Shown here one piece after another: positions 1,681-32,938 of a stretch of DNA of 33,439 nt (position 1 is its first letter; every line of letters begins with the position of its first letter). Under the pieces are notes generated by a model, which was given only the letters and a program-made list of their open reading frames with translations, made no database searches and had not been told where the DNA came from. The stretch spans positions 1 to 33,439 of the forward strand of contig JAFRJH010000202.1 of assembly GCA_017432385.1 (NCBI GenBank). The letters run 5' to 3'. This stretch comes from Kiritimatiellia bacterium. Lineage in GTDB: Bacteria > Verrucomicrobiota > Kiritimatiellia > RFP12 > UBA1067. The translations under genes and the position numbers were made by a program.

Positions 1681-4443
1681 TTACCTCCTGATGCGGTAGA
1701 CGTGGCGGAAGTGCGCCGGGTACGAATCGGAGAACTCGCCGTTATCGAAGGCGATCGTGCGGTTTTCGTAGAGCACCTCTACGACGCCCCTGCGCGGCGC
1801 CTCCGGCGGGAGCGTGAACGCAACCTTCCCGAGCGGCGAGGCGTCGATGTTGCATGTGAAGAGGTACCAGTCGTCGCCGCACTTGGACGTGCGGTGGCGG
1901 ACGAGCTCGGGTCCGACGGAGGCGCGCGCCGGCTCGCAGAGCTCCTCGGAGAGGATGTAGTCCTTGAGCTCCTGGACCTCGCGGTTGAAGTCCACCATAG
2001 CCTGCCAGTTCGCCTTGGACCCGACCATGTTGATGAACCACGTCACGCCCGAGCACCCGGCGCAGATCGCGCCCCAGCTCTGGGCGGTCTGCTCGCCGTA
2101 CGACGGCTGCTTGTAGTGGATTGAGTTCATCCCGGCGAGGAAGAACCAGCAGGGAACGCCGGGACGCGCCTTGAGCATCTCGTCGACGTTGCGGAGAACC
2201 TGGTCGACGGTGTTGAACTCCGCCGCGGTGAGGTAGGCGTCGAGCATGAATATGTCTGTCCTGAGGTCGGCGAACCTGCTCGGGAACCCGAACGTCGTGT
2301 TGTTCATCTGCACCGGCGTGTAGGGGAAGTGCTTCTTCTCCTCGATCATGAAGTCGCGAACCTCGTCGCTGGGGCGGGCGAGCTCGGGCTCGTCCGTCGC
2401 GACGCGGCTGATGATGTTGTCGTAGTGCATTAGCCGCGCACGCGTCTCGGCGCGCGTCTCGGTCTTGCCGTCCTGGTCCCCTGTCCAGAGGATGAAGTCC
2501 ATGCCGATGCCGCGCCCGTAGTCGAGCACGTCGACCGCCATGTCGGTGAGCTGCCTGTCCGAGAACGTGCAGAGGTGCGCATAGCGGAACCCGCGCTTCC
2601 TCATGATCTCGAGCTGCTCGTAGCGTCCGTTTTTGTTCTTGGGGTTTTCGCGGTTGAGAAGGCAGTTGGACGCCATCAGGACCTTCTCGCCGTTGTGGAT
2701 CACGGAGCGCGTGAAGCGGTTCACCTGCGTGGCTCCCTTCCAGAACGGAAGCTTCACGACCTCTACGGGCCAGTCGCGGCCGTGCGCCCGCACCGTGGCG
2801 GCGTTCGTGCCGCACGCCATCTTCGTGATGTCGAGCGAGACCTCCTCGAGCCTGCCCTGCTCGTCCCAGATGCGCCAGCGCGCCTCGGGCTCGTTCATGT
2901 AGAAGTCGAGCCTGCCGAGCACGACGGGCTTCGACTCCGACTTCTTCGCCGCCGCTACGCGCGACCACTTCTCGTAGACGTCCGCCGGCAGGTCGAGCGA
3001 CGCCCAGTACGCGTCGTCGCGGAAGTCGCCGCCTTTCGTGTAGGAGGTGCCGGGGCACTGCGGGTTCACGCTGTGGCGGTCGTTGCGCCCGAGGTTGAAC
3101 AGCCAGCGCCTGTCCATCCCGTTCTCGGCGATGTCGGCGAATGGAACGGTGACGAGGTACTCCACGGCGCCGCCCGCGTCGCGCGCCTGGACGGTCCAAG
3201 TCCCGTCCCACGACTTGTTCTCGCCGTAGGCGTCCGCGCGGCACCCGTTGGGCGCGCAGAAGAAATGGTAGTTCTTCTTCTCCTCCGTCGGGCGGAGGAG
3301 TATCTCCACGGAGTCGTTCATGCAGATCCCGGTGTCGTCCTTGAAGTACGGCTTGTGCGCGAGCTGCGAGGCGTCCTCGCCGAAGTTGCGGAAGCCTATG
3401 TAGAGCCTGTCGTCGTCGCACGCGAGGAACGCCTGCGTGCGGTTGAGCGGCTCCTGGCGCTTGATGTAGAACCTGCCGGCGTCCGCGGCGAACTTCTCCC
3501 ACGACGCGACGTCGACCGACGGCTTCACGCCGGAGGGGAGCTTCTTCACCTGCACGGTCGGCGGACGCTCCGCCTTCTCCTGCTTCCCGAAGCGCGACGA
3601 GTCGAGGTCGCTCGGGCGCCATTCGGTGGCCTTGTCGCCGAACTCGAGCTGGAGGTCGTCGAGCCAGATGCGGCCGTCGTACTTCCCGGGCTCGCGGACG
3701 CTGAAAGTGACGGGGCTGAAGATGCCAGGCGCGGGCATGTTGGTAGTCGACACCTCGTAGCGCGCCCATTCCGTCGTCAGGTCGAACGTGCGCCTGTCTC
3801 GCCCAAGCTCGACCGTGATCTGCATTCCGGGCTTGTCGGCCTTCATCCAGCCGGTGAATACGCCGTGGGCGCCCTTGCGGGTCGCGGTGCGCCAGGGGTA
3901 GAAGCTCAGCTGCCCCCAGAGGCCGTTCACGACGAGCCTGAGCGACTGGCTCCCGGAGTGCTTCTCGGCGGCGTCGACCTCGAAGCTTTCCGTCCACTTC
4001 TCGTACTCCTCGCCCGTGCGCTCGCGCCAGTTGAAGCTGCCGCGGTTGCAGTAGTACGGGGGAATGCCGTCCTCCGAGTGCTCGAAGCCGGAGTTGACGA
4101 TGAGGTTCGGGGATGCGTTCGCGTCCTCGGGAAGCGACACGACGACGTCGTCGACTATCCTGGCCTGGCCGCGCGCGGCGAACACGACGGCAGGGCTCTT
4201 CGCGCGTTCGCACTCGACGCGGTTCGGCCTGCGCTCCTCGCCCTCGACCCACTCCAGGACGTACTTCTCCGGCACTGCGCCGCGCCAGGTCGCCTTGGCG
4301 CCAGGCATCACGACGAGCCGCCCGCCTTCGCTCCTGATCTCGCCGTCCGCCTTCCAGTGCTCGGCGAGAGTCTGGTTCGTGGCGAAGTCGTCGGTGAACA
4401 CACTCATCGCGGCGGCAAGGGCAAACATGGATGCTATCGGCAT
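1681..4443 (-). CDS. Secreted multidomain protein: carbohydrate-binding modules plus TIM-barrel-like domain, putative glycoside hydrolase
   Basis: 920 residues. The start at 4443 is supported by GAGGAG six bases upstream and by a short hydrophobic leader (MPIASMFALAAAMS), although it lacks a basic n-region. Three parts can be seen. At about 112-270 there is a CBM4/9-like jelly roll beginning NLIVNSGFEHSEDG. At about 310-490 there is a DOMON/CBM9-like domain (LYIGFRNFG, MNDSVEILLRP, YLVTVPFADI, WLFNLGRND). From about 600-900 there is a probable TIM barrel with DFILWTGDQDG, a VATDEPEL segment whose Glu could be catalytic, FMLDAYLTAAEF and CSGVTWFINMVG. I cannot assign it to a numbered GH family. 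It heads the operon with GH127 and has its own 46-bp palindrome promoter. Extracellular or periplasmic glycan hydrolysis is inferred from architecture and context only. Confidence 0.7.
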   Translation of the reverse strand: MPIASMFALAAAMSVFTDDFATNQTLAEHWKADGEIRSEGGRLVVMPGAKATWRGAVPEKYVLEWVEGEERRPNRVECERAKSPAVVFAARGQARIVDDVVVSLPEDANASPNLIVNSGFEHSEDGIPPYYCNRGSFNWRERTGEEYEKWTESFEVDAAEKHSGSQSLRLVVNGLWGQLSFYPWRTATRKGAHGVFTGWMKADKPGMQITVELGRDRRTFDLTTEWARYEVSTTNMPAPGIFSPVTFSVREPGKYDGRIWLDDLQLEFGDKATEWRPSDLDSSRFGKQEKAERPPTVQVKKLPSGVKPSVDVASWEKFAADAGRFYIKRQEPLNRTQAFLACDDDRLYIGFRNFGEDASQLAHKPYFKDDTGICMNDSVEILLRPTEEKKNYHFFCAPNGCRADAYGENKSWDGTWTVQARDAGGAVEYLVTVPFADIAENGMDRRWLFNLGRNDRHSVNPQCPGTSYTKGGDFRDDAYWASLDLPADVYEKWSRVAAAKKSESKPVVLGRLDFYMNEPEARWRIWDEQGRLEEVSLDITKMACGTNAATVRAHGRDWPVEVVKLPFWKGATQVNRFTRSVIHNGEKVLMASNCLLNRENPKNKNGRYEQLEIMRKRGFRYAHLCTFSDRQLTDMAVDVLDYGRGIGMDFILWTGDQDGKTETRAETRARLMHYDNIISRVATDEPELARPSDEVRDFMIEEKKHFPYTPVQMNNTTFGFPSRFADLRTDIFMLDAYLTAAEFNTVDQVLRNVDEMLKARPGVPCWFFLAGMNSIHYKQPSYGEQTAQSWGAICAGCSGVTWFINMVGSKANWQAMVDFNREVQELKDYILSEELCEPARASVGPELVRHRTSKCGDDWYLFTCNIDASPLGKVAFTLPPEAPRRGVVEVLYENRTIAFDNGEFSDSYPAHFRHVYRIRR
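1684..1689 (-). promoter_or_regulatory. Strong ribosome binding site overlapping the upstream gene end
   Basis: AGGAGG on the minus strand forms the last two Arg codons of the upstream protein, directly before its TAA stop, and lies 4 nt from the ATG at 1679. This decides the GH127 start and suggests translational coupling of the two genes. Confidence 0.7.
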
Positions 4444-4487: not shown

Positions 4488-4533
4488 ATTATATATCCAG
4501 TACCTCAATCAGGCAATCCCTACAAAAGTAGGG
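4488..4533 (-). promoter_or_regulatory. Palindrome-linked sigma70-type promoter A (drives 4443-1 operon)
   Basis: Palindrome CCCTAC-TTTT-GTAGGG at 4518-4533, with the perfect stem extending to 8 bp here. One base (A) follows, then -35 TTGCCT (4511-4516), a 17-bp spacer and -10 TATAAT (4488-4493). It lies 7 bp after the stop of the acyltransferase gene and about 45 bp before the ATG at 4443. Confidence 0.85.
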
Positions 4534-5693: not shown

Positions 5694-5900
5694 TTACTCG
5701 ACGACGATCTGGTAGAAGCACGTCGGCTCGTTCGGGTCGCGCGCAATCGTGAAGAGCAGTTCGCCCGCGCTCGCCGCAGGGGAGTCCATGGGCACGACCT
5801 GCGCGTCCTTCAGCCCTTCGAGGGTCGTCGACTTCCTGTAGCCGTAGAGTCGGCCGGCGAGGGCGTTGTCGATCGTGATCTTGATTCCGCCGCTTCCGTT
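5694..5900 (-). repeat. Shared C-terminal domain, copy 1
   Basis: Most divergent of four copies: KITIDNALAG, YGYRKSTTLEGLKDA, PTCFYQIVVE, then stop. Aligns without gaps to the copies at 13663, 17622 and 28225 over about 62 residues. Confidence 0.85.
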
Positions 5901-7469
5901 GTCAAACCCGCTGATCGAGGGCTTGTAGCCTTCGGGGAGGGGGCCTGCCGGATCGACGGGGCCGTCGGAAGCACCGAACTCGCCCTGGTAGCAGCCGATG
6001 TCGACCTTGCCGTTGTAGAGGCGCGCATGCCCAGCCAGGTCTGTGGCGTCGTACATCCATTCGAGGACTACGCCGTGCGCGTTCAGCACCGAGCCGTCGT
6101 CAGGGCGGAAGTCGCCGTTCGCATAGTCCGCGAACTTGATGCCCTCGGCGTCGGCGCGGCAGGAGAGGTTGGAGCTGACGCCCGTGGCGTCGACGTTCGC
6201 GACAGCCATCAGGCCGGGATTCTCGGACACGTGCTGGAACACGCAGTTCGCGATCTGGACTCCAGCAGGAAGGCCGCTGTAGTGGAAGGCGATGCCGTAT
6301 CCGCCCTGCGTTATCCTTGCGCCGTCGCACGTCCATTCCGCGTTGCCCCAGAACACGCAGTTCTCAAGCAGCGGGGTCATCGAGTCGGCCTTGCAGAACA
6401 CGCCGCCGGCGTTGTCGACGAAAGTGCAGTTCACATAGGTGTCCGAGCCGAACAGCTGAATGGGAAGCTTGTTGCCGATGAAGAGCGTGTTGCGGCACTC
6501 TGGCGAGGACTGGGGATTGACCCAGGGGCGCGTCGAGATTCCGTTGACGGCATTGATGGCGTCGATGGCATCACCGCCCGCGACGAGGGCGTCGTACTTC
6601 GCCTTCGCCGTCCCATAGCAGTTGGAGACGACGCAGCGGTCGATGACGGAGCAGGCCTCTCCTACGAGCGGGCCCTCGCCGATGCCGGCGAACACGCAGT
6701 CCTCGACAAGGAGATGCGCCCTTCCGCCGGACTGCGACATGCAGATGATGCCGGTGGAAGTAGGCAGCGCCGCCAGTCCCATGTTCGAAAACACGCAGTT
6801 GGAGACGACCGACGAGCTGTGCAGCATCACGACGCTCCAGGCCTGACGCGTACAGGAGTCAAACGTCGAGTTCTCCACCCAGAAACTTCCGCAGACCGCG
6901 CCGCCCTGCGAAACAGTGTTGTCGCCGTGCGAACCGCAGGCCGTGAAGCCGCAGCCCGTGATGATCGGATATGCTGCGCGTTCCTCGATTCCGCCGCTGC
7001 CGACGGACGCGCCGTCGGACGTCGCAAGCGCGCCGGCGCGCTTGCCGTGGCAGTTTACGAACTCGCAGTCGCTGATCTCGAATCCGGACATGCCGCCGTT
7101 GCTCGACGAGACGTATACCGGGGCGTTGTCCGCGACGTCGGAGGCGTTCTGGAACGTCAGCCCCGAGATCTTGACCCCGGCCGCCTTCACGTAGAAGACC
7201 GCCGTGGAACGCGCCGGGCTCGCGGTCGCGCCGCCGTCGAGGATCGTCTGCCCCTTGCCGGCGCCGGCAATCTTGACGCCCTTCTCGACCGTGAGCTTGG
7301 CAGTGACGTCGTACGTCCCGGCGGCGAGGGTGATCGTGTCGCCGTCGCCCGCATCTGCCACCGCGGCGGCAAGGCCCGCAAAGTCGCTGACAGGGAAATC
7401 CGCGGCCATGGCGGCCGTCGAAATGCCCGCGGCAAGCGCGGTCCGAAGAATCAGTCTGCTTGTTTTCAT
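5694..7469 (-). CDS. Secreted right-handed beta-helix protein (pectate-lyase-like fold) with shared C-terminal domain
   Basis: 591 residues from ATG 7467-7469, chosen for the signal peptide MKTSRLILRTALAAGISTAAMA and an AGAGGG site 9 nt upstream. The frame is open further upstream but would cross the promoter. Residues about 25-75 (FAGLAAAVADAGDGDTITLA, then TYDV...GVKIAGAGKGQTILDGG) are the classic entry of parallel beta-helix proteins. Helix coils follow to about residue 500, with recurring NCVF, DCEFVNC and CSVIDRCVVSNC turns rich in Asn and Cys. These are seen in polysaccharide lyases, GH28-like enzymes and non-catalytic adhesins. No catalytic set could be assigned. The last roughly 65 residues are the shared C-terminal domain (YGYRKSTTLEGLKDA ... 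CFYQIVVE). Its promoter shares an operator with the divergent GH92 gene. Confidence 0.8.
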   Translation of the reverse strand: MKTSRLILRTALAAGISTAAMAADFPVSDFAGLAAAVADAGDGDTITLAAGTYDVTAKLTVEKGVKIAGAGKGQTILDGGATASPARSTAVFYVKAAGVKISGLTFQNASDVADNAPVYVSSSNGGMSGFEISDCEFVNCHGKRAGALATSDGASVGSGGIEERAAYPIITGCGFTACGSHGDNTVSQGGAVCGSFWVENSTFDSCTRQAWSVVMLHSSSVVSNCVFSNMGLAALPTSTGIICMSQSGGRAHLLVEDCVFAGIGEGPLVGEACSVIDRCVVSNCYGTAKAKYDALVAGGDAIDAINAVNGISTRPWVNPQSSPECRNTLFIGNKLPIQLFGSDTYVNCTFVDNAGGVFCKADSMTPLLENCVFWGNAEWTCDGARITQGGYGIAFHYSGLPAGVQIANCVFQHVSENPGLMAVANVDATGVSSNLSCRADAEGIKFADYANGDFRPDDGSVLNAHGVVLEWMYDATDLAGHARLYNGKVDIGCYQGEFGASDGPVDPAGPLPEGYKPSISGFDNGSGGIKITIDNALAGRLYGYRKSTTLEGLKDAQVVPMDSPAASAGELLFTIARDPNEPTCFYQIVVE

Positions 7470-7514: not shown

Positions 7515-7560
7515 ATTATCGCAAATATGCCGTTTTCCCACAATCCCTACAGATGTAGGG
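7515..7560 (-). promoter_or_regulatory. Palindrome-linked promoter B, leftward arm (drives 7469-4541)
   Basis: Palindrome at 7545-7560 (minus-strand reading CCCTAC-ATCT-GTAGGG). On the minus strand: one base, -35 TTGTGG (7538-7543), 17-bp spacer, -10 GATAAT (7515-7520). About 45 bp before the ATG at 7469. Confidence 0.85.
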
Positions 7561-7590
7561 GTTCTGTGACTGGCACGCGTATGGTAAAAT
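7545..7590 (+). promoter_or_regulatory. Palindrome-linked promoter B, rightward arm (drives GH92)
   Basis: The same palindrome (7545-7560) read on the plus strand: one base (G), -35-like TTCTGT (7562-7567), exactly 17 bp, -10 TAAAAT (7585-7590). The geometry equals that of the six minus-strand promoters. The -10 box is only 6 bp from the GH92 ATG, so the predicted transcript has little or no leader. Confidence 0.7.
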
Positions 7591-7596
7591 GAAGTC

Positions 7597-9564
7597 ATGA
7601 AAAGATGGTCTGCCATAGGTCTCGCCCTGCTTCTGGCCGTCGGGGCGGAATCATCGCACGGCGAAGACGCCGCGTCGGAGATGGACGTCGCCGACCTCGT
7701 CGACCCAATGATCGGCACAGTCGGCACGGGGCATGTCTTCCCGGGGCCGTGCCGCCCGTTCGGAATGGTCCAGCCCTCGCCGGACACGGGAAACGGCTCC
7801 TGGACCTACTGCTCCGGCTACTGCGGCAACGACAGGGCGATCCGCCGCTTCTCCCAGACGCACCTCAACGGCACCGGGCAGGCCGCGCTCGGAGACGTCG
7901 GCTTTCTGCCTTTCTCTTCCGAGCCGCCAGGCGACCCGCGCGACGCCGCGCTCGCATTCAGCAAGGATCGCGAGCGCGCCTCGCTCGGCAAGTACGATGT
8001 CGCGGCGGAGGACGGGACCCGCGTCGAAATCGCCGCCGGACGACGTCTGGCGCATTACCGCGTCACTTTCGCCGCGGGATGCCCAGGCAAGGTTCTCTTC
8101 GACTTCCCCTACGGGCTCTACCGGCACGAACGCTATCTGCCGCTTCTGACGACGTCGTGCAAGGTCGAGCGCAAGTCCGCCACGACGTTCGAGGGAATCA
8201 ACCATTCCGACATATGGTGTCCGCGCGACATCGCCTATGTCGTCGAGCTCTCGCACGCACCCGCGTCGTGCCGGCGGCTGGACGGGCATGGCGCGGACAA
8301 AGGGCCGCAGTACCTCCTGGAGTTCGCGCCCGGAACAAGGCTGGAGATACTGGTCGCGCTCTCCGCGAGCGCCATCGAGGGCGCACGCCGGAACCTCGCC
8401 GCGGAGCGCGCGGCCGGATTCGACGAAAGGGTCGCCGAGACACGCGCGGAATGGCGCCGCTACCTGGGGAGGATCGACCTCTCCGGACGCGGAGCCGACG
8501 AGCGGAAGGCCCTCGCCACGGCCATGTACCATCTCTGCGTCCAGCCGAACCTGGTGTCCGACGACGGCGAAGCGCCGCGCTACTCTACGTTCTCGCTGTG
8601 GGACACGTTCCGCGACGCGCACCCCCTGTACGAACGGCTCGTCCCGGAGCTTGTCCCCGACTTCGTAAACTCCCTTCTCGCGCACTATCGCCGCTGGGGG
8701 TACCTTCCGCGGTGGGAGCTGTGGGGCCGCGAAACCAACTGCATGATCGGGTCGCACGCCGTGCCAGTGGTGGCGGACGCCATCGAACACGGCTTCGCGG
8801 GAATCGACGTGGACGAGGCGTACTCGGCGGTCAGGGCGACGCTCACGCGCGAGGAGCGGCCGGGCTCGGGGACGATGTCGGCAAGGCGCACCGACTGGTC
8901 CGTCTACGACAAGTACGGCTACTACCCCTGCGACCTCGTTCCGTGGGAAAGCGTCTCGCGGACACTGGAGTGCTGCTACGACGACTTCCGCGCGGCGCGG
9001 CTCGCGCGGCGCCTCGGCAAGGCGGAGGACGCCGACTTCTTCGAACGGCGCAGCTGGAGCTTCACCAACCTATGGGACGCGGCCTCGCTCTGCTTCAGGG
9101 CAAAGGACTCGCGGGGGCGCTGGCACGTACCGTTCGACCCGGCCAACTGCAGCCTGACGCACAACTACACGGAGGGCAGTCCGCTCCAGTATTCATGGTA
9201 CGTCATGCACCGTCCGGCATGGCTCATCAAGGCAATGGGCGGCAAGGAGGCCTTCGAGGACCGGCTCGACGCATACTTCGCGGGGACGCTCTGCCCGGGG
9301 TCGCCGAGAAACTACATCCAGGACGTGACGGGGCTCGTCGGCGACTACGCGCACGGCAACGAGCCAAGCCACCACGTCACGTCGTTCTACCGGCTGATCG
9401 GAAGGCCGGAGAAGGCGGCGGCGCTCGAGAAGCGCATCATCGCGGAATTCTACCGCCCGCGTCCTGACGGCCTGTGCGGCAACGACGACTGCGGACAGAT
9501 GAGCGCCTGGCTCATCCGCACGGCATTCGGATTCAGGACGACCACCTCGTCGCTGAAATACTGA
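7597..9564 (+). CDS. GH92 exo-alpha-mannosidase, C-terminally truncated
   Basis: 655 residues and the only plus-strand gene. The start MKRWSAIGLALLLAVG is a signal peptide. GH92 hallmarks appear in order: DLVDPMIGT near residue 30, FPGPCRPFGMVQPSPDT near 48, FSQTHLNGTG near 84, the NYTEGSPLQYSW segment carrying the expected acid Glu, HGNEPSHH near 585 (calcium site of the family) and GNDDCGQMSAW near 627. The family consists of calcium-dependent inverting exo-mannosidases that trim N-glycans or mannans. Known members continue for about 100 residues after GQMSAW..ALGF with closing beta-sandwich strands. This protein stops after AFGFRTTTSSLKY, 3 bp from the stop of the convergent GH27 gene. Activity may therefore be reduced. 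No Shine-Dalgarno lies between the predicted -10 box and the ATG. Confidence 0.88.
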   Translation: MKRWSAIGLALLLAVGAESSHGEDAASEMDVADLVDPMIGTVGTGHVFPGPCRPFGMVQPSPDTGNGSWTYCSGYCGNDRAIRRFSQTHLNGTGQAALGDVGFLPFSSEPPGDPRDAALAFSKDRERASLGKYDVAAEDGTRVEIAAGRRLAHYRVTFAAGCPGKVLFDFPYGLYRHERYLPLLTTSCKVERKSATTFEGINHSDIWCPRDIAYVVELSHAPASCRRLDGHGADKGPQYLLEFAPGTRLEILVALSASAIEGARRNLAAERAAGFDERVAETRAEWRRYLGRIDLSGRGADERKALATAMYHLCVQPNLVSDDGEAPRYSTFSLWDTFRDAHPLYERLVPELVPDFVNSLLAHYRRWGYLPRWELWGRETNCMIGSHAVPVVADAIEHGFAGIDVDEAYSAVRATLTREERPGSGTMSARRTDWSVYDKYGYYPCDLVPWESVSRTLECCYDDFRAARLARRLGKAEDADFFERRSWSFTNLWDAASLCFRAKDSRGRWHVPFDPANCSLTHNYTEGSPLQYSWYVMHRPAWLIKAMGGKEAFEDRLDAYFAGTLCPGSPRNYIQDVTGLVGDYAHGNEPSHHVTSFYRLIGRPEKAAALEKRIIAEFYRPRPDGLCGNDDCGQMSAWLIRTAFGFRTTTSSLKY

Positions 9565-13662: not shown

Positions 13663-13905
13663 TCACTCCACTACGATCCGATAGAAGCAGCTCGTCTCAT
13701 CCACCGCCTTGGGAACCTCAAGCACCAGCGCCCCGTCCGCCGCCGCGAGCTCGTCAAGGTAGACGACCGGAGCATCATCGAGACCGGCGAGCGTCGCCGA
13801 CTTCTTGTAGCCATACCTTCGCCCCGAAGCGGCGTTGCCGATTGTTATCGACACCTTGCCGGCCCCTACAACGATCGGGTGTTCAACCCCTTCTCCGCCG
13901 ATTAC
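13663..13905 (-). repeat. Shared C-terminal domain, copy 2
   Basis: VSITIGNAASG, YGYKKSATLAGLDDA, TSCFYRIVVE then TGA. Preceded by the linker PVIGGEGVEHPIVVG, shared almost unchanged with the copies at 17622 and 28225. Confidence 0.9.
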
Positions 13906-16900
13906 CGGCGCCTCGGGTTCGGGCGTCTGGCCGCCCGTTCCGTCGTCCGGGAGCCCCGTCAGCTTCAGCGCGCAGATGCAACTGACGGTCGTGGCGGTCA
14001 CCGTTATGCCGAAGGCGGTCTTCGACGTCGAGGCGCCTCCGTCAGAGACGAGATAAACGGCACGCGACCCGTCGCTCAGCTTCGGACCAAGCGCAATCCC
14101 CTCGTACACGATCAGCTCGTACGGGCCGAACACGCTGCTTGGGCTCGACCCCGTGAACTCCAGAAAGCACTCCCCCTTGCCCACCGCCGAGAACGTCGCG
14201 TTCGTCAGCGCCGGGACGGCAGACACCTCGGTTGCCGCGGCAAATGCGCCCGTCGTAAGGCGGTAGATGCGGCAACGGCCGCACGTCGTCGTGCTGACTT
14301 CGCGTTCAAGGGCGAGGAGCGAACCGTCGGGGAGCGCGCAGAGCCCCGAGAGCCCGCTCTGCGCGGAAGTCGTACCGGCGCAGGAATCGCAGGTGTACGC
14401 CCACTCGCCCGCCGCCGTCCAGGCGTCCTGCGCCGCCGCGCGCACGAAGCGCGTCAGACGAACGACGGTGGCGACGTTCGTGTTGCCGCTCGACGACTCG
14501 CCGTCGCATGTAAGCGCCTGCTCGTTGGCGGTCCACATGGCGAGTCCGTCGGGGGAGATCGTCAACGCCTCGAGCGAAAGGTTGGAGCGGACCTTGTCGC
14601 GCTGGACCGATGGAACCGGCGCCGTGCGGCCAGTCGCGGAACCATCAAGGGCGAACTCGGAGATGGACGGCGGCGTCCATTCGGAGCTCACCCACAATGT
14701 GCCGGAGAGCGGATCACGCGCAAGCCCCTCGGCGTCGCGAAGTCCCCCTGGCGCAACCGCCGCGCCAAGCTCATGGCTCTCGATTGCGCCTGTCGCCGTA
14801 TTGATGCCAAGCGTCAACGGATAGATCTTCGAATCTCCGCCGTTGTCGTCATGGTCCTGCAAAACGTAGAACAAGCCGCCCTCGCCAGAATAAGCGATGC
14901 CGCCGCAGCCGTTTGCCCCGAAGGGATATTCCGCGATCTTCGCGAGAGACAGCATGTTGGTGGTGTCCGGTCCGGGGACGATCGGCTCGACAGGACCAGG
15001 CTCGTCGCCACCTGAACCGCCTCCAGAGCTCTCGCCAAGGTCGCGCACCTGGATGGCGGCGACGTAGCGCGCGGCGCCCGATCCGCCCATCTTGAACGTG
15101 ACGACGTGCGATGCGGCTTCCGCCGTGAACGAACCATAGACCGTCGCGCCGGACGAGCCGTTCCCGTTCTGGATGCTGACGGCTGGGAGATCTCCGATCG
15201 TAATGGATGGGTTGCCGAACGAGTTACGCGCCAGTATCTGCAGGAGATACGCGTGACCCGTCGTCAATCCCGAAAGCGTCAAATGGATTTCGCCCATCCC
15301 GGTGTCCACGCCGAAGTTCCAGGCCGTGCCAAGAAGCGAACTACTACCGGCATTCTCGTCCGCATTATTGAATGTCGGATTGAACGAGATGTTCGCGGAC
15401 GAAAGATCGGCACCTGCCTGAAACGTAACGCCGCCCAGAGTCCGCTCCGTCGAAGCGCCGCGATATGCATAGAGAAGCGTGCCGTCGGTCCTGAGCATCG
15501 TCTCGTCCGACGCAGGCAATGCCGCAACGGTCCAGGGGATCTGCGGCACTGGGCCGGGCTCGTCTCCGCCACCGCCGCCGCTGGTCGCCTGTACGACAGG
15601 ATAGTCGGCGTCGGCGAACGTCTTGTCGCCCGAGAGTGTGAAGACAACCGGGTTGCCGCTCAAGATCTCGTAGCCATCGGCCGCGGCAAAATTAACAGTT
15701 ACCTGCGTATTCGAGACAATCGTGTAGCTGCCCGCAACAGCCGCGACCGCGACGCCGTTCGTCGTCACCGACTGAAGAACAATCCCCGTCTTCGCGGGGA
15801 TTGTCAGCGAACATGTCGGCACAGGATCGGGATCGACGGGACCGGGCTCACCTCCGCCGCCCGATTCTCCGTCGGGGAGCTCGCGGACCTGTATGCCGTT
15901 GAGGGGGATTTTGCCGTCGACGTTGGAGAACGTAACCGTAACTTCCTTCGTGTTCCCCATGGCCGTGAAGGTCCCGGTAATGAGCGCGCCATACTTCCCG
16001 CTCGCCTCGTTCTCGCCATGGATATGCACTGGACTGCATCCGTTCACCGAAACGGTCATCTTGTTGTTCCAGTAGTTGTGCGAGAGGAACTGCACGAGAT
16101 AGTTTTTCCCGCCCGCGAGGCCTGAAAGCGTCAGCTTGAACGTGCGCACGCTCGAGCCGTTGTTGTTCCAGTACCAGCCGTTGCTAAGCATGACTCCAAA
16201 GTCGCCGCCGACTTCTTCGTTCATAAGTTCGCTGGTGAAGCTGTCGATGTTTGGCGCAAAGGCAACCTCCAAGGAACTGCCCTGGAGATTTACGTCACGC
16301 TCGAATTTGATTCCGTTGACCGTTCCGCCGTGGCTGGAATAGGCATAGAGAAGCGTGCCATCGGTACGGAAGGAACTGCCGGATGCATCCATCGGAGCCG
16401 AGGTCCAGACGTCGGAGGCAGCGGACGTGTTGACGTAGAAGACGACGGACTTCGTCTTCGTCCGCCCCTTGTCCGTAGTCATCGTCACCTCGCAGGTGTG
16501 GTTGCCGTCCGCAAGACCTTCAAGCGTGAACGAGCTGTCCGTCGTCTGGTCGGTTAGCGCCGTCACGGCGGAGGATGCGCCGTCGAGCTTGTAGGCGACG
16601 GAATACTTGGTCGCGGGGACCGAATTGGCGTCCGTGCCCAAGACCACGCCCGCGAGCGAGATCGTCGCGTTCGAACCGCTCGGCGCCGCGGTGAGCTCCG
16701 TGATGCGCGGATACTTCGGACGGTTGTTCGTCGCGCGGTTCTGCGCGAACAGCCAGACGAAGCGGTGGTTCGGCGCGCCCGCCGTGACGTCGTCGGTCCG
16801 GGAATAGCACGTCGTCCAGGCGTCGTGGGTGTTGTTCTCGAGCTTCTCGAAGATCACGTCCGACCCGAGCGCCCTGAGCGCCGTGACGATGCCCTCGGTC

Positions 16901-17529
16901 TGCTCGCATGGAATGGTCGGGTCGCCGCGGTTGTGGACGGCCAGGACCGGGACGTGCGCGATGTCGGCCGCGCAGGCGGGATCGCCGCCGCCGCAGCACG
17001 GCATCGCCGCGGCGAAGAAGTCGGGACGGCGGCAGATCGCGTCCCAGGTCCCGTGCCCGCCCATGGAGAGTCCGGTGACGTAGATGCGGTTGGCGTCGAC
17101 ATCCGCCATCGCGGCATAGGAGTCGAGGAGATCGAAAACAGCCACGAGAGCCGAGGACGGCTTGTCCACGAACGTGCAGGTTGTAGAATTCATGGAGAAA
17201 TCCGCCCACTTGACGTCGTTCGGACACTGCGGGACGAGAAGCTTGTAGCCGCTGGGAGCGCCCGCACCGTCGAGATAGCTCTTGATGTTCGTCATCTCGT
17301 TGATCGTGAACGAATTGTCGACGCCGCACTGACCGTATCCGTGAAGGAAGACGACTACCGGAACCTTGCCGCCATTCGGATCGGCCTTCGCCGCGACGCG
17401 GTAGGGAAGCTGCAGCTTGTTGGACGCAATGAACGTCTGTTTGACGAATTCGCCTTCGGCAGCAGCTGCGCCCATGTATCCGAGCGCAACGGAAACCGCC
17501 AGAACGAGACTCTTCTTGACCTTATTCAT
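13663..17529 (-). CDS. Secreted mosaic: COG4099-like esterase, two binding-like modules, phytase-esterase-like domain, C-terminal shared domain
   Basis: 1288 residues from ATG 17529 (GTGGAG five bases upstream; signal peptide MNKVKKSLVLAVSVALGYMGAAAA). Residues about 30-260 are an alpha/beta hydrolase of the predicted peptidase/esterase group COG4099: VVVFLHGYGQCGVDN, LLVPQCP, nucleophile Ser in GLSMGGHGTW near 150, Asp in HNRGDPT near 200 and His in NNTHDAW near 233. An Ig-like repeat (about 275-370), binding-like module 1 (375-553), an 80-residue repeat domain (571-648) and binding-like module 2 (665-833) follow. Residues about 858-1193 resemble the esterase-like domain of phytases (PF13449): GLRDAEGLARDP, GTLWVSSEW, SLEALTISPDG. 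The protein ends with the shared C-terminal domain. Acyl or feruloyl/acetyl ester removal from glycans is a plausible role; the substrate is unknown. First gene of the operon from promoter C. Confidence 0.8.
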   Translation of the reverse strand: MNKVKKSLVLAVSVALGYMGAAAAEGEFVKQTFIASNKLQLPYRVAAKADPNGGKVPVVVFLHGYGQCGVDNSFTINEMTNIKSYLDGAGAPSGYKLLVPQCPNDVKWADFSMNSTTCTFVDKPSSALVAVFDLLDSYAAMADVDANRIYVTGLSMGGHGTWDAICRRPDFFAAAMPCCGGGDPACAADIAHVPVLAVHNRGDPTIPCEQTEGIVTALRALGSDVIFEKLENNTHDAWTTCYSRTDDVTAGAPNHRFVWLFAQNRATNNRPKYPRITELTAAPSGSNATISLAGVVLGTDANSVPATKYSVAYKLDGASSAVTALTDQTTDSSFTLEGLADGNHTCEVTMTTDKGRTKTKSVVFYVNTSAASDVWTSAPMDASGSSFRTDGTLLYAYSSHGGTVNGIKFERDVNLQGSSLEVAFAPNIDSFTSELMNEEVGGDFGVMLSNGWYWNNNGSSVRTFKLTLSGLAGGKNYLVQFLSHNYWNNKMTVSVNGCSPVHIHGENEASGKYGALITGTFTAMGNTKEVTVTFSNVDGKIPLNGIQVRELPDGESGGGGEPGPVDPDPVPTCSLTIPAKTGIVLQSVTTNGVAVAAVAGSYTIVSNTQVTVNFAAADGYEILSGNPVVFTLSGDKTFADADYPVVQATSGGGGGDEPGPVPQIPWTVAALPASDETMLRTDGTLLYAYRGASTERTLGGVTFQAGADLSSANISFNPTFNNADENAGSSSLLGTAWNFGVDTGMGEIHLTLSGLTTGHAYLLQILARNSFGNPSITIGDLPAVSIQNGNGSSGATVYGSFTAEAASHVVTFKMGGSGAARYVAAIQVRDLGESSGGGSGGDEPGPVEPIVPGPDTTNMLSLAKIAEYPFGANGCGGIAYSGEGGLFYVLQDHDDNGGDSKIYPLTLGINTATGAIESHELGAAVAPGGLRDAEGLARDPLSGTLWVSSEWTPPSISEFALDGSATGRTAPVPSVQRDKVRSNLSLEALTISPDGLAMWTANEQALTCDGESSSGNTNVATVVRLTRFVRAAAQDAWTAAGEWAYTCDSCAGTTSAQSGLSGLCALPDGSLLALEREVSTTTCGRCRIYRLTTGAFAAATEVSAVPALTNATFSAVGKGECFLEFTGSSPSSVFGPYELIVYEGIALGPKLSDGSRAVYLVSDGGASTSKTAFGITVTATTVSCICALKLTGLPDDGTGGQTPEPEAPVIGGEGVEHPIVVGAGKVSITIGNAASGRRYGYKKSATLAGLDDAPVVYLDELAAADGALVLEVPKAVDETSCFYRIVVE
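15029..16407 (-). repeat. Module array in the esterase mosaic: two binding-like modules around one 80-residue repeat
   Basis: Binding-like module 1 at about 16407-15871 (SAPMDASGSSFRTDGTLLYA to LNGIQVRELP), the 80-residue repeat at 15818-15585 (CSLTIPAKTG to YPVVQATSGG), and binding-like module 2 at 15538-15029 (ETMLRTDGTLLYAYRG to VAAIQVRDLGE). Gly/Pro/Asp linkers separate them. Homologous arrays lie at 21188-23815 and 28500-31320. Confidence 0.85.
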
Positions 17530-17560
17530 GGGCACTCCACAGGTTTGTGTTTACGCCCAC

Positions 17561-17606
17561 ATTATAAGCCAAACCACGCCCCTCCGCAATCCCTACAAAA
17601 GTAGGG
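17561..17606 (-). promoter_or_regulatory. Palindrome-linked promoter C (drives 17529-9568 operon)
   Basis: Perfect palindrome CCCTAC-TTTT-GTAGGG at 17591-17606; one base; -35 TTGCGG (17584-17589); 17-bp spacer; -10 TATAAT (17561-17566). It lies 15 bp after the stop of the 2557-residue gene, and the ATG at 17529 follows a leader of about 25 nt. Confidence 0.9.
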
Positions 17607-17621: not shown

Positions 17622-17870
17622 CTATTCCACCACGATCTGGTAGAAGCAGCTCGGCTCGTTCGCGGCCTTCGGAATCTCGAGCGTCAGGATACCGTCTGCC
17701 GCAGCGGGATTCGCGAAGTACACGACCGTCGCATCCTTGAGGCCGGCGAGCGTCGTCGACTTCCTGTAGCCATAGGTGTGCCCTGACGCGGCGTTGCTGA
17801 TCGTGATCGACACCTTGTCGGATCCGACTACGATCGGACTTGCAACCCCTTCCCCGCCGATCACGGGCGC
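17622..17870 (-). repeat. Shared C-terminal domain, copy 3
   Basis: VSITISNAASGHTYGYRKST, TLAGLKDATVVYF, EPSCFYQIVVE then stop. Nearly identical at DNA level to copy 4 at 28225-28475. Confidence 0.9.
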
Positions 17871-20800
17871 ATCGGGTGCCGCGGCCTCGACAAAGACCGC
17901 CGTCCAGTCGTCCGTCGAATCCGCAAGCGGCGTCTCGTTGTCGAAGCGCGTCGCCTGGAGGGCGTAGCCGCCTTCGTCCGTCCGCGCATCGCACAACCCG
18001 AAGGTCAACTCGCCGAGCTGCACGACGGCACCCGTCTTGTCGATGATCTTGATGGCGATGCTACCGTTCGTGATCTTGGTCCATCCGACGTTCGCATAGT
18101 CTGCCTGGTCGAGGCGGAGGGATCCGTAGGCCGAAAGATCAACGTCGCCGAGGACAATTTTGCACTTGGGCACACTGCCTGCCTTGCCGCAGGAGATTTC
18201 GACGCCTTCGAGATTAACTGCGCTTGCGGAGACGTTCGTGATGACGATGAACTCGCCAAGGTCGCCGCCTCCGTTGAGCGTTGATCCGTAGATCGTGTGG
18301 AAGCGGAGATTCGCCTGGTCGGAATCGCCGATGTCGGGCTCCGTCGTAAGGACCTGCGTCGTGCCGTCGGGCGCGAAGATCTGCAGGACGGCCGTGTCGG
18401 AGAATGTCGCGTTGCCGACGATCACCTGGTCCGTGAGCGCATCCGAGTGTGCGGCTACGTAGGCGCGACGATCCGCTACGACGTAGATCGCGTCCTGTGC
18501 GTCGCAGACGGTGCCGGCGGGAAGCGTCCACTCGACCGCAGTCTTGAGCGTCCATCCGCTCATGTCGACGACCTCGTTGTTCCCGTTGGAAATCACGACC
18601 ACGCCGTCGGCGAGCCCCGAGAGGTCGACCGTGATGTTCGGCGCAAGCGTCTCAATCGGGCTCTGCGCCTCGGGGATGCCGGCGTTGAGGCGCGAGCCGT
18701 AGCCGACCGCCTTCGCCGTGTTCGTCACGGAGTGCGTCACATAGAGGTGCTCGCGGCGCGGAACGACGTAGTTGTTCCAGATGTCGTCGACACCGGCGGA
18801 GATCGTGGCGGGGCGCGACGAAGACGGCCAGACGTCGATGGCCTGCGCGGAGGAGTCGATCGGCCACTTCGCCGAATCGGCTGCGGCGTCAGCCGACATG
18901 AGCGCGACCATCTCGCGCATCTTCGCCATGACGGGCGTGTCCGACTCGGCAGTGCCGGGCTCCTTGAGCTCCTGGTCCATCAGCGTCCTGAGGCGGCGCA
19001 GGAACAGGCGGCGGAACTTCGTGGACTGGAGGACCGACTCGATGCCGTAGTTACTGTAGTCCCTTCCGGCCGCAGCGGCCATCGTGGTCGTCATAGCCGA
19101 GGAGGTGTAGCACTGGATGCGGTGTCCGCCATAGAGCGGATGCGACTTGAACCAGTCGTCCGTCGAAGAGATGCCGTTCTGCCCGAGCCCGGCGTCCCTG
19201 TAGAACTGCCCGAAGGTCTCGTTGAAGTCGTAGCCGAGTGGCATCCAGGTGCCGGTGCCGCGCGCCCCCTCCTTCATCTCCGGGTTATCGTAGTAGACGC
19301 AGATGTTGGCCCACACGTCGTCCATCTCCTGCGTGATGCGCGCGGAGGCGAGGTAGTTGAGCCACGCCGGAAGGTCGAACTTCTGGACGACGAACTTCGT
19401 GAGCGGGGCGTTGTCGAGTCCAGTCGGATCGGTCTCTTCGGAGGAGAGCGCCGCCGCCGTGGATCCGCTGACGTTCTGCACGCCGAGCTCGTAGATGGGC
19501 CCGCGCAGCTCGTTCTGGAGGACGGTGATGTTGGACTCGTCCTCGTCATCCGGCGTCTTCTTCTCGATGTCGCCCGCAAGGGTTCCGGAGCCGCTCTTCA
19601 TCGTGCCGACGTTCTTGTAGCCGTAGCCGTACTTGTCTAGCCCGTACACGTCCTCGATCAGCTCGTCGGTGAAGCGCTCGGTGTTGAACGCGAGCTGGTA
19701 GAACTGCCCGTTGAGGTTGCAGCGCACCGGGAAGTGGAACGGCGCGTTGTTGCCCATCCTGCGCCAGAGCCAGAACGCCATCATCTGGCGCAGCTTGCTC
19801 GGGTCGGCGTACTCGCTCGTGAGCGAGGTCTTGCGGATGCCGTCGATCGTCTCGCCCGTGACGACGTCGGTCATCGTGAGAGGGTGCGCCTTGGCGAACC
19901 TGAGGCCGTGGCTCTTCTTGGTGAAGTTTGCCGATGTGTTTCCGCGCAGGTCGATGCGGACGTAGTCGTAGTAGTTGGACGTGGAGGCGTCGTAGATCGC
20001 GACGCGTGCGCCGTTCGCCAGCGTGTAGTGCTGCTTGTCGTCCTTGTCGTAGTCCATCTGCGCCACGGACTGCGGGTCCGCGAACATGTGCCAGGTCGGG
20101 AGATGCTCGCTCACGAGGTCCGCGCCTGGCTCGATGATCGTGCCGTACCATTCGTAGCCGTCGTCCTTGTTGTTGAAGCTCGGGCTCGTCCATTCCACGC
20201 CCTCTCCGTCAGTGACAAGCACCTTCCACTGCCTCAGGTGCCCCGCCGCGGGGAAGTAGGACGCGGGAATCGTCGCCGTGTAGCGCGCGCCCCAGTTCTT
20301 GTCGCTCGCGTCGAGAGTCGACATGTCGACGGCGTTCGTGACGAGCGTCGCGTCGTCGAGGTCCTTGCGGTAGACGAACTTGATGGACGCGATCGCGTCG
20401 GCCGCGCGCGGCGCGGACGAGCCGTCGGGGTTCATCACGGGGTTGATCGGCAGCACGACGGCGTAGTCGGTCCCAGGAACGGCCGGCGGCACAGGGGCGG
20501 CGAACTCGCTTGCAAGGTCCGTCTTCTTTTTGTCCGCCTTCTCGTAGACCGGGCCCACGTTCGGGCCGATGCGCCTAAGTCCCGTCGTGTCGGAATTCGC
20601 CGTGCCGCGCGTCGGCGTCGGGCACATCCAGCGGCGCGTGCCCTCCCCTTCCGCCGCGTCGCCGACGATGATGGACCATCCTTCCGGGAGGTCGCTCGGC
20701 ACGACGACCGTGTCGACGACGTTCGAAATCTCGCCGCCCGGCGCGTAGTAGAGCCTCACGAACGGCGACTTCTTCGGGTTCACCTTGTCGCCCCACACGA

Positions 20801-23800
20801 GCACGCCCCTGAGGCTGTCCCCCATGACCATGGGCTTGCCGTCGAACGTGCCGTGCTCGAACGCGCTCACCGACCTGTCCTTGCTGTTCGAATAGCGCTC
20901 GGACGTGTAGAACACGGCGTGTCCATGCGGCTTGACGAGGAACCTCGGGAAGTTCCCCGCGCCGGCGGTGTCAGTCTTCTTGCCGCGATTCACGCGGATG
21001 AAGCGGTAGTCCGCGAGGTCGGCCCACTTGTCGGACGTGTTCTCGACCTCGACCCAGCCGGACTCGAGTCCGTTGACATCCATCCCCTCGAGTGCGCCGC
21101 GGTCAAGCGCGTCCGTCGGCTTTGGCATCACCTCGCTGATCCTGAGCATGCAGCTCGTGGCAATGTCCGCAGGGTCGACCTCCGGAGCCTCCTCCGGCAG
21201 CTCACGCACCTGGATGGCGCTCAACACGGTATAGACCGAGGAGACGAGCGAGAAAGTCTCCGTATCGCCGCCGGCAACAAACACGCCGACGAGCGAGCCG
21301 CCGTTCTCCCAGCCTTCGCCGTTCGCCCTCGCCGTGACGTCGCCCGGAGCCGTGAAGCGCGCACCCGCCGCAAACGAATCCTGCATGTTGAGTATCAGCT
21401 GCACGAGATACGTCTTCCCAGTCGAAAGCCCCTTCAGCGTCAGCGTCCGAGCGCCGGTCGAAGACGAAACCCAGCGGTGTCCGATCAGGTTCTGATACGG
21501 ATCAGCTGAATCCGAATTCATGTCGCGGTACATGTCGACGTCAAAGGAGAAGTTGACGTTGTTGTAGACCTCGCTCAGATTCTTATCCCCAAGTCCGGCG
21601 AACGGAACGGCGTTGACCGTGCCGGTACGGCGGGCGTACGCGTAGACGAGCGCGCCCGTTGTGCAGATCGTGTCTCCGCTCGCACTCATCGGCGTCGCCG
21701 TCCAACCGAGGCCCACCGGCGGAACCACGGGGTCATCCCCGCCGCCGCTCGTCGTCTGCACGACGGGATAGTCGGCGTCTGCGAACGTCTTCGCGCCAGA
21801 GACCGTGAAGACGACGGGATTGCCGCTTACAATCTCGTAGCCCGAGGCGGCGGAAAACGTAACCGTGACCTGCGTGTTCGACACGATCGAGTAGCTTCCG
21901 CCGACAGCTGCGACCGCAACGCCGTTCGTCGTCACCGACTGGAGCTGAAGCCCCGTCTTCTCTGGAATCGTCAGCATGCACACAGGCGTCGTCGGGTCGA
22001 CAGGATCGATCGGATCTTCGCCACCGCCGCCGCCACCTTCGCCGAGGTCGCGAACTTGGATTGCGTTAAGCGGCCTCATTCCAGACGACGCTGCGGAATA
22101 CGTGACGGTGAAGCTCGCCGTCGCGTCCGTGGCCGTGAATACGCCAACGATGGATCCGCCGTAGTTGTAGTTCACGCCGTCGTGCGTTCCGTGGATGTGC
22201 ACGGGCGTCGAGCCGTTGACCGAGACGAGCGTGCTGTTGGATGTCCTGTGAGAAACAAGCTGGACGAGATAGGTCCTGCCAGTTGTCAGCCCCTTTAGCG
22301 TAAGGGAGAACGAGAGCTCGCCGGACGCGGCGCCATTGTAACCCCAGTACCAGCCGCCCTCGAGCATGTGCCCGAAGTCGCCAGACACGCCCGCGTTCTG
22401 GAAGTCGCTGTTTACGCTCCCCGTGGGGGTGGGCGAAGCAGAAACCATAGCGGCACTGGTGAAATCAGAGGCCTTCGTGAAGGTCACGCCCCCAACCGTT
22501 CCGCCGCTGAACGAATAGGCATAGAGGAGCGTGCCGTCCGTGCGGATCGTGCTGCCGTCCGAAGCCATCGGCCCAGCGGTCCATCCGGCTTGCGGCGTCG
22601 GCCCTGGCTCCCCGCCACCGCCACCACCTTGGCTTGATGTCGCAATCGCGAAGGAGACGGACTTGGTCGCCGTCTTGTTCTTGTCGGTCGTGATCGTAAC
22701 AGTGCAGGTGTAGCTGCCGTCGGCGAGACCCGCAATCTGGAACGAGGCGGAAGCGCCGCTCTGGTTCGAAAGCGCCGTCACGGCGGAGGCGCCATTGAGC
22801 GAATAGGCAATAGAATAAGAGGACGCCGTAGCGCCCTCGTCATCCGTCCCCATCTCGATGTTGGAAAGCGAAATCGTCGCCGTGTCGTCGCTCGTGGTCG
22901 CCGAGGCCGTCCCGATCGACGGAGCGACGACCGTCGCCCCGCCGCCTTCGCCGCCACCGCCTTCGCCGCCACCGCCTTCACCGCCCGAGCCGCTACCTTC
23001 GCCGAGCTCGCGAAGCTGGATGGCCTTGACGAGGCATTTGCTGCCGGTGGTGGCGAACGTGACGGTCACGGTCTCCTGCGCGCCCGTCGCCTCGAACACG
23101 CGCGTGATGACGGCGCCGCACTTGTAGTCGTTCTGCTTGGTTGCCTCCAGCGGAGAGAGGTCGCCGGCGGAGATCGTGGTCGAGGAATTGTTCCAGTGGT
23201 TGGCGGCGAGAATCTGGACCAGGTACTTCTTCCCGGCCGTGAGCCCCTGGAGGGTGAAGGCAAGGTCCAGCGAGGAGTCGCTCTTCTCCCACACCCAGCC
23301 GCCGTTGAACACCGGGTTGTTCTCCGTCCAGCCCGCGCCGGTGTACGACGAGGGCGAGATCGTCGCCTGGTCCGAGCCCGGGAAGCCCGCGGAGAACGAG
23401 ACGCCGTTGACGGTGTGACCGGTGTAGCCGCGCGCGAAGACCTGCGTGCCGTCGCTGCGGAACGCCGAACCCGTCGCGTCCATCGGCGCGACCTTCCAGC
23501 CGACGGCGTCGGCCTGGGAGTCGACGAGGAACTTGACGCGCTTGACGGCGGATTTTACGATGCCGTCCGACGAAACCCAGACCGCGCAAGTGTGCCAGCC
23601 ATCGCCAAGGCCATTGAACTGAACCGAAGCCGACGAGCCGGTCTCCGTCGTGGAAAGCGCCACCTCGGCGCTTGCGTCGAGCTTGTAGGAGACCGTGAAG
23701 GACGATGCGGCCGCGCCGCTGGCGTCCGTGCCCTTCGCCACGCCGGAAAGCGCAATCGTCGCGTTCGTGCCGCTCACCTGCGCGGCGGCGGAGCCGATCG

Positions 23801-25327: not shown

Positions 25328-25373
25328 ATTATATGGCAAAAGCCATCCTGCCGCAATCCCTACGAACGTAGGG
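25328..25373 (-). promoter_or_regulatory. Palindrome-linked promoter D (drives 25295-17622)
   Basis: Perfect palindrome CCCTAC-GTTC-GTAGGG at 25358-25373; one base; -35 TTGCGG (25351-25356); 17-bp spacer; -10 TATAAT (25328-25333). It lies 17 bp after the GH2 stop. Confidence 0.9.
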
Positions 25374-28224: not shown

Positions 28225-28475
28225 TCACTCCACAACGACCTGGTAGAAGCAGCTCGGCTCGCCCGCCACTTTCGGTATCTCAAGCGTCAGTACGCCGTCG
28301 GCTTCGGCAGGATCGTCGAAATAGACCACCTCGGCGTCCTTGAGGCCGGCAAGCGTCGTCGACTTCCTGTAGCCGTAGGTGTGTCCCGCTGCGGCGTTGC
28401 TGATCGTAATGGCGACCTTGTCGGACAACACCGCAAACGGCACATCAACCCCCTCCCCGCCGATCACCGGCGCAT
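28225..28475 (-). repeat. Shared C-terminal domain, copy 4
   Basis: VAITISNAAAGHTYGYRKST, TLAGLKDAEVVYF, EPSCFYQVVVE then TGA. Linker PVIGGEGVDVPFAV as in copies 2 and 3. Confidence 0.9.
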
Positions 28476-31400
28476 CGGGCTCCACGGGAGCGCCCGCCGG
28501 CAGCTCCCGCACCTGGATGGCGTTGAGCGCACGCCATCCGGCGGGGCCGGAATACTTGACCGCAATGTCCTCCGTCGTGCCCGTCGCATCGAAGACACCG
28601 ACAAGCGAGGCGCCGTACTTGTTGGTGTCGCGCATGGCCATCGGCTCGAGATCACCGGCGCTGATCAGCGCATCGCTCCACTTGTTGTGCGCGAGGACCT
28701 GAACGAGATAGCGCTTTCCGGCCGTCAGCCCCTTGAGCGTGATCGTCAGCGTGCTTGTTGTGTTGGCCCACTTCCACGAGTTCTTCAGCATCGTGCCGAA
28801 GTCTCCGGTCACGCTCTCGCTGCCCGAGCTGCCGTCCGTCTGCGCCAGATCCGGCGAAACCGCCGTGTAGGTCGTATTCAGGTCGGCGTCCGCGGCGAAG
28901 GCAATTCCGTTGACCGTCACCGACTGGACGGCGTAGGCGTAGAGAAGCGTCCCGTCCGTACGGAAAACGGTCCCTTCCGCATCCGCAGCCCCGCCGGTCC
29001 AGCCAGTCTCGACGGAACCGCCGCCGCCACCGCTCGTCGCCTGCACGGTCGGATAGTCGCCGTCGGCGAACGTCTTGTCGCCCGAGAGCGCGAAGACGAC
29101 CGGGTTGCCGCCCGTGATCTCGTAGCCCGAGGCCGCGACAAACGTCACCGTGACCTGCGTGTTCGAAACGATCGAGTAGCTGCCCGCAACCGCCGCCACC
29201 GCGACGCCGTTTGTCGCAACGGAATCAAGGACAAGTCCCGCCTTTCCGGGAATCGTCAGCGTGCAGACGGGCGTCGCCGGATCGACAGGATCGACCGGAT
29301 TCTCGCCACCGCCACCACCCTCGCCGAGATCGCGCACCTGGACGGCGTTGACCGGCCGGTCGCCGTTCGAGCCGGAAAAGAGGATCTCTACATCCTGCGT
29401 CTCGGCCGAAGCAGTGAAGGTGCCAGTCATAAGAGCCCCGTACTTGCCGCTGGCTTCGTCGGAGCCGTAGACATGCTGCGATTCGCAGCCATTGGCGGAG
29501 ACCAGCATGCTGCCGCTCCAGTGCGTGTGCGAGAGGATCTGCACCAGATACCGTTCCCCCGGCGTCAGGTTCTTCAGCGTCAGCGTCACCGCCTTGGTGT
29601 CCGTCGACGAATCCGTCCACGTCCAGCCATTGCCGAGGATGAGTCCGTAGCCACTATCCGAAACTCCCTCGTTCATCAGGCCGCCGTCGAAGCCGGTAGC
29701 CTCCGGCGTGAAGGCGATTTTGTGGGAGGAATCAAGAGGCAGAGCCCGCGTGAACGAGACGCCGTTGACGGTCTGTCCCTGCGCCGCATAGGCGTAGACC
29801 AGCGTGCCCTCCGTGCTGAACTTCGCGCCGGCGGCGTCCATCGGTTCGGACGTCCAGCCGACCGGCGTCGGCGGCGGCTCGCCAATCCTGAAGTTGACGG
29901 ACTTCGCCGCGGACGTCTTGTTCGCGTCGGTCATGATCGTCACCGCGCAGGAATAGACCCCGTCGGCGAGATCGGCGATGTCGAACGTAGCCGTCGAGGC
30001 GGTTTGGCCCTCGAGCGCGGCCACGTCAGGCGCATTGGTCAGCGAGTAGAAAACCGAATAGGAGGTCGCCGAAACGCCTCCGTTGTCGGTTCCCATCTCG
30101 ATGCCCGAAAGCGAGATCGTCGCCGTCGTGCCGTTCGTCGAGACGGAAACCGACCCGATCGACGGCGCGACAACCGGCGCCGGCGGCGTGCCGATCCGGA
30201 AGGAGACGGACTTCGCCGCGGAGGTCTTGTTCTTGTCTGTCGTGATCGTCACCGCGCACGTGTATTCGCCGTCCGCGAGACCGGAGATCGTGAACTGCGC
30301 GGACGCACCGGTCTGGCCCGTAAGCGCGGCTACGGACGCCGCGTTGTTGAGCGAGTAGGAGACGGAATAGGAATTTGCGCTCTCACCGGCATCGTCCGTC
30401 CCCAGCACGATGCCCGAGAGAAAAACCGTCGCCGCCGTTTCGTTCGTCGTGACGGTGACCGAGCCGACCTTGGGCTGGACTACGATCGGCACGCCGCTCT
30501 CGCCGAGGTCGCGCACCTGGATGGCGTTGATGCCGTAGTTTCCGTCGGACGTGATCGTGAACGTCTTGGTGGACTCAGTTGCCGTAAAGGTCCCCGTCAG
30601 CGCGCCGCCGCAGGACCAGCCGTCGCCGTAGACCTTGATGAAATTCGGATCCCAATACGACTCCTTGATCCAAACATGGGCCTTGCTGTCACTGTTGTAG
30701 TTGCGATAGCCGAATATCTGAACGAGGTAGCTACGTCCAGCCGTGAGGTTCTTGAGCGTCACCGCCTTGTCGCCCTGGTTCGCCCACCAGCAGCGGTTCA
30801 GGAGGTCGTAGTAAGCGCCAGAGATGCTGCTCGGAGCCGACGCGCCGGAGGTCTGGTTGTACGGCCAGGAAATGTCGCCCGAGATGTTCGCGTTGTTGTT
30901 CCCGGCAGCCGCGAACGTAACGCCATTGACCGTGCAGGCCGAGGGCGCATACGCATACTTGAGTGTGCCGTCCGTGCGAATGGCGCTTTCGTCGGTCGGC
31001 AGCGGGCTCGCGTACCACGGCTCGGTCATCGTGAAGTCGAGCAGCGTCACGAGCTCCTTGTTGTCCGCCGTCGTGACGGTCACCTTGCAGGTATGGTCGC
31101 CGAGGGCGACATTCGGGATCACGAACGACTTCCTAACGCCCGTCTGGTTGGAAAGCGCACGTGTCTTCGCGCCGCCGTCGAGCTCGTAGTCAATCGCGTA
31201 GGACGTCACGGCGTTCGCGTTCGCGTCCGTTCCGAGGTTGATGCCGAAGACCGTGATCGTCGCGGAGCCCGCGCCGTCCGCGTTCGGAGCGGCCTTGGCG
31301 TAGCCGAGCGAGGGATCCGCCACGTGCGCCTGGCCGGCGGGAACCGAGAGATACTTGTGCATCGCGTTGGTCAGCGCAGGCTTCCAGAAATCCGAATAGG

Positions 31401-32151: not shown

Positions 32152-32180
32152 GACATGCCTCGCTTTCATTTTACGATGAA

Positions 32181-32870: not shown

Positions 32871-32938
32871 GACGATGATGCTCCTTTCCTTGTGGGCAGT
32901 GCGGATGCATTGCCACCTTCTGCACGACTTGCGACACA

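Follow-up and report, generated by a model that had tools for sequence, protein, structure and literature searches.

The window analyzed here, a stretch of 33,439 nucleotides from a Kiritimatiellia bacterium, carries at positions 7545–7560 a 16-bp 6-4-6 palindrome, CCCTACAGATGTAGGG, which has no strand of its own and lies between two divergent genes. On its left, a gene encoding a secreted beta-helix protein (PF13229) occupies positions 5694–7469 of the minus strand. On its right, a GH92 gene (PF07971, PF17678) extends from 7597 to 9564 and is the sole plus-strand gene retained by the gene caller in the window. Reading leftward from the palindrome, a single A is followed by the -35 box TTGTGG (7543–7538, minus strand), 17 bp and the -10 box GATAAT (7520–7515, minus strand), while reading rightward, a single G is followed by TTCTGT (7562–7567, plus strand), 17 bp and the hexamer TAAAAT (7585–7590). 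The palindrome and all of these boxes, which had been proposed in an earlier sequence-only reading of this DNA, were recovered exactly where that reading had placed them. The two -10 boxes, each 24 bp off the palindrome end, are equidistant from its centre (7515 + 7590 = 7545 + 7560). The geometry had been described as equal on both strands; since TTCTGT matches TTGACA at only two of six positions and is not credible as the -35 box it was taken for, the symmetry is limited to the -10 geometry.

Judged by its sequence, the rightward promoter is of the extended -10 type (TGG-TAAAAT, 7582–7590, plus strand), and what had been described as a weaker -35 is no real -35 at all. This extended -10, TGGTAAAAT, ends 6 nt short of the GH92 ATG (7597), which places the predicted transcription start on the first base of the start codon and predicts a leaderless GH92 mRNA. 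The predicted start falls within the interval anticipated earlier (7595–7600), the leaderless mRNA being an addition to that reading. A stronger dependence of GH92 on an activator, which had been suggested from the weaker -35, is not implied. Extended -10 promoters are able to function alone, without a -35, and the kinase genes bearing the same element (see below) presumably need basal expression. The GH92 side may have a basal activity of its own, allowing expression without any activator, as a kinase gene would need. Across the window, the rate per position is 3.7e-4 for matches to TATAAT at five or more of six positions and 3e-5 for TGnTAnnAT. TGnTAnRAT matches only twice over both strands, one of the two being the element at 7582–7590. 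A -10 located at the exact offset is therefore improbable by chance.

Six palindromes with at most two mismatches are found in the window (4518, 7545, 17591, 25358, 32211 and 32969), and their leftward sites, including the one described above, can be aligned. The five others are all oriented to the minus strand: 4518–4533, 1 bp upstream of TTGCCT-17-TATAAT and before the gene at 1681–4443; 17591–17606, with TTGCGG-17-TATAAT, before 13663–17535; 25358–25373, with TTGCGG-17-TATAAT, before 17622–25295; 32211–32226, with one changed base and TTGCGA-17-TATAAT, before 28225–32169; and 32969–32984, with one changed arm base (GGAGGG) and TTGCCA-17-TATAAT, before 32232–32918. Two further palindromes are located on contig C116 (33628 and 38669), and the genome total amounts to eight CCCTAC-N4-GTAGGG sites, each adjoining a promoter. 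On the leading side, a TTGnnn box begins 1 bp past each of the eight palindromes and is followed by a -10. The number of palindromes in the window exceeds chance: seven matches with at most three mismatches were obtained against 0.49 expected, and no shuffle reached seven. The match at 13864, with three mismatches, lies inside a coding gene and was treated as a chance occurrence rather than as an operator.

The genes behind the window palindromes include those of a secreted beta-helix protein, a GDSL lipase and large repeat proteins, and glycosidases (GH92, GH127, alpha-galactosidase and GH2 type) are interspersed among them. Four large secreted proteins have a near-identical C-terminus, such as SCFYQIVVE-stop (window positions 5694–5750, 13663–13720, 17622–17680 and 28225–28280), which is possibly a sorting or anchoring domain. 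The leftward promoters also have in common a conserved CGnAAAc located 5–6 nt downstream of the -10, about at the start site (e.g., near 7509, 17538 and 25305).

The palindrome recurs within the genus, with 7 copies in genome G008, 19 in G029, 3 in G041 and a single copy in G011, G013, G030, G032, G035, G050, G056 and G060, those of G056 and G060 not being of the promoter type seen here; the relatives are mostly draft assemblies in many contigs. Twelve genomes contributed 79 site flanks, and in 31 of these the -10 starts at exactly +24 from the palindrome, with 4 flanks at +23, 3 at +25, 4 at +26, few elsewhere and single cases one helical turn further, counts which are not fully independent as the genomes compared share ancestry. 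The palindromes have a fixed position beside the -35 and are in helical phase with the -10, as are Class II-type activator sites. A different promoter, with TATACT at +26 and genes of ~315 aa, accompanies the CCCTACAACTGTAGGG sites of L058 (G029:C94:2089 and 7424) and L047 (G060:C94:65862).

At C116:33628, the palindrome is flanked on one side by a beta-helix gene and on the other by a leftward, leaderless HisKA_3 sensor kinase gene followed by a response regulator gene. This regulator (L017:11148–11771), encoded beside a CCCTAC site, contains a receiver domain (PF00072) and a GerE domain (PF00196), both over the cut-off, and its best sequence match among solved structures is VraR (5hev). VraR/LiaR proteins are cell-envelope stress regulators of Firmicutes, whose targets differ from those found here. 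This HisKA_3 kinase is also the divergent partner across the palindrome in G008, G013, G030 and G035, where its ATG follows closely on an extended -10, and thus the GH92 gene of the window sits where a kinase usually does. In these four genomes as in the window, promoter-like elements can be read on both sides of the palindrome from the sequence. Within the genus, promoter-type sites are found in ten genomes, counting the own genome, and each of the ten carries a kinase of the C116 family on the same contig as a CCCTAC site. In G011, G032 and G035, a single palindrome lies within a few kb of a single kinase match, and in G086, which belongs to another genus, CCCTAC immediately precedes the kinase. 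The own assembly being 83% complete, another regulator could be missing from it.

A dimer site common to two divergent promoters best accounts for the locus, since other species have the same layout with a sensor kinase gene in place of GH92; this is in line with the symmetric dimer proposed before. That such a site controls both genes at once, as was also proposed, is what we infer. It might be argued that the palindrome belongs to the leftward beta-helix promoter only and that the extended -10 of GH92 is independent, its spacing being coincidental. Indeed, the rightward -35 is not credible, extended -10 promoters are generally known to work alone, and a search of the genus retrieved no GH92 orthologues carrying the palindrome, the best match having 51% identity. 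However, the chance of finding an extended -10 precisely at +24 is low (3e-5 per position), and in five genomes the kinase genes across this palindrome show the same one-sided pattern, making an independent GH92 promoter unlikely. In a search of named genomes, GH92 relatives were mostly from Bacteroidota (about 35–45%) and also from Kiritimatiellae of ruminant foreguts.

Kinase matches are numerous in these genomes, with 9 in the own genome, 17 in G008, 17 in G013 and 16 in G040. Sufficient upstream sequence was available for 73 kinase genes; in 50 of them TGnTAnRAT precedes a start codon by 4–11 nt, the same layout as GH92, whereas none of 1598 internal start codons is preceded in this way. 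A perfect 6-4-6 palindrome is located upstream of 23 of these 50 extended -10 kinases, compared with 0.7 expected from shuffled sequences and 1.1 from the inside of genes. The spacing between palindrome and -10 is 22–26, 34–35 or 44 bp, with none between, and clusters at a 10.5-bp period (R = 0.84, with 0 of 20,000 uniform draws as high). In a check extended to 20 further loci (18 from other genera), an extended -10 was present at 9, 3 of which also had a perfect palindrome; the kinase upstream architecture is only partly kept beyond the genus. Across the CCCTAC site at L049:4383 (G041:C73), TGGTAGAAT forms a divergent extended -10 at +36, leading into a 297-aa gene whose product does not resemble a kinase. 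Three kinase genes have one in-frame TGA (G010:C79:22601–24349, G018:C61:41254–42909 and G044:C182:727–2382) and are either assembly errors or decaying copies.

Collectively, these data suggest that the palindrome at 7545 is likely the operator of the NarL/LuxR-type response regulator of C116, which would probably act as an activator and serve both genes. The HisKA_3 kinase would sense an extracytoplasmic signal, probably a glycan, and then phosphorylate the regulator, which as a dimer would bind the eight CCCTAC-N4-GTAGGG sites of the assembly. Bound with its centre at -44.5 (32 bp upstream of the -10 in each case), the dimer would make contact with RNA polymerase and turn on the promoters next to it. 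As such a dimer is symmetric and both -10 boxes are 32 bp from its centre, a single one at 7545 could serve the beta-helix gene leftward, from a promoter with a weak -35, and GH92 rightward, from a leaderless promoter with an extended -10.

This mechanism has a precedent in the NarL/FixJ family (E. coli ogt1052, yeaR), which likewise combines a 16-bp inverted-repeat site with a regulator made of receiver and GerE domains. In ogt1052, a single NarL 7-2-7 site centred 32 bp upstream of the -10, at -44.5, is enough for activation, and NarL activates ogt derivatives in which one such site precedes the -10 by 32, 55 or 65 bp (PMC9314961). The dimer of the NarL output domain binds 7-2-7 sites, and an engineered published site of this kind, TACCCCTAAAGGGGTA, is also 16 bp long (PMC4549865). 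The 6-4-6 palindromes are, like these operators, 16-bp inverted repeats composed of two half-sites. Unlike in the NarL system, the half-site here is CCCTAC and not the NarL heptamer, one site is common to two divergent promoters, one of them leaderless by prediction and with an extended -10, and many paralogues occur, each with its own half-site.

Since NarL itself represses some promoters (PMC4549865), it has to be considered that the same response regulator is a repressor which blocks both promoters until the signal comes, and the palindrome does abut the leftward -35. However, frdA, which is repressed by NarL, has its high-affinity site near the start (PMC4549865), whereas the palindrome here lies upstream of the -35. 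In addition, the near-invariant spacing, with kinase sites located one or two helical turns further out, suits contact with the polymerase over occlusion, and the leftward -35 boxes are poor. Taken together, the constant spacing, the phasing with the helix and the weakness of the -35 boxes favour activation by the bound dimer, and repression appears quite unlikely.

The half-sites of the kinase palindromes vary (CCCTAC, CCCCAC, CCCTCC, CCCCTA, CTAGCC, TTACCC and others), and GTATAC half-sites came from a wider scan. In a set of 32 regulators, hand-curated by eye from this wider scan and which may therefore favour the hypothesis, recognition-helix similarity correlated with half-site similarity (r = 0.51), and continued to do so once similarity in the receiver and in the remainder of the DNA-binding domain had been taken into account (partial r = 0.25, p = 0.0005); the 25 non-redundant regulators of the set gave a partial r of 0.22 (p = 0.0015). 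In an automatic set of 21 regulators, the simple correlation holds (p = 0.001) with a partial r of 0.07 (p = 0.27), and the covariation is not separable from shared ancestry. As the partial correlation is significant in the curated set and not in the automatic one, a specificity code, by which the recognition helix of each regulator would dictate the half-site of its own palindrome, is only suggested.

The variety of half-sites bears on whether a protein of another family (BlaI/MecI/CopY-like, CRP/FNR, LexA or XRE type) binds the palindrome, its linkage to the kinase reflecting gene clustering only. N4-spaced palindromes are known from several regulator families, and we take TACAnnTGTA to resemble the BlaI/CopY operator core. 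Nevertheless, paralogous kinase-regulator pairs have palindromes of the same architecture with different half-sites, which is what would be seen if every regulator recognised a site of its own. Moreover, a search directed at Penicillinase_R (PF03965) gave 0 matches in the own genome, at 83% completeness, and BlaI/MecI/CopY was rejected as the regulator. Binding by another family is thus very unlikely. Short GC-rich inverted repeats near gene ends might also act in recombination or as terminator hairpins, but such a role is extremely unlikely here, a T-run being absent after the repeats, which lie 1 bp upstream of -35 boxes with a spacing to the -10 that is fixed in many species.

With the C116 regulator as the preferred candidate for the site at 7545, we lean somewhat towards a broader reading, in which the genus would possess an expanded kinase-regulator family with its own short-leader or leaderless promoters, and 16-bp sites whose half-sites are set by the regulator would form an operator code for glycan-degradation and surface-protein genes, GH92 having been wired into the position of a sensor gene. 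Expanded sensor families are also a feature of the HTCS of Bacteroides polysaccharide utilisation loci, which sense carbohydrates (PMC3404733). Unlike the single-chain hybrid HTCS, the system described here would consist of a separate HisKA_3 kinase and a NarL-type regulator, and its operator and promoter geometry is legible from the sequence. A literature search retrieved nothing on the control of glycan-degrading and giant surface proteins in gut Kiritimatiellae and nothing specific on Kiritimatiellae regulators or leaderless promoters, and the relevant portion of a Kiritimatiellota genome paper reports kinases and regulators near glycoside hydrolases, an operator not being given there (PMC10880615). 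If the broader reading is true, operators could be assigned to sensors by sequence alone, and the regulons of uncultured species could be predicted and then tested in a surrogate host.

A second regulon, with GTATAC-N4-GTATAC, is present in the own genome at L252 (G000:C289:469 and 1787) and L255 (G000:C141:9238), one of these sites preceding a further pair of kinase and regulator genes. Most occurrences of the half-site belonging to the C289 pair, GTATAC, are accompanied by a second, imperfect copy, which abuts a TTGTTC-17 -10 promoter.
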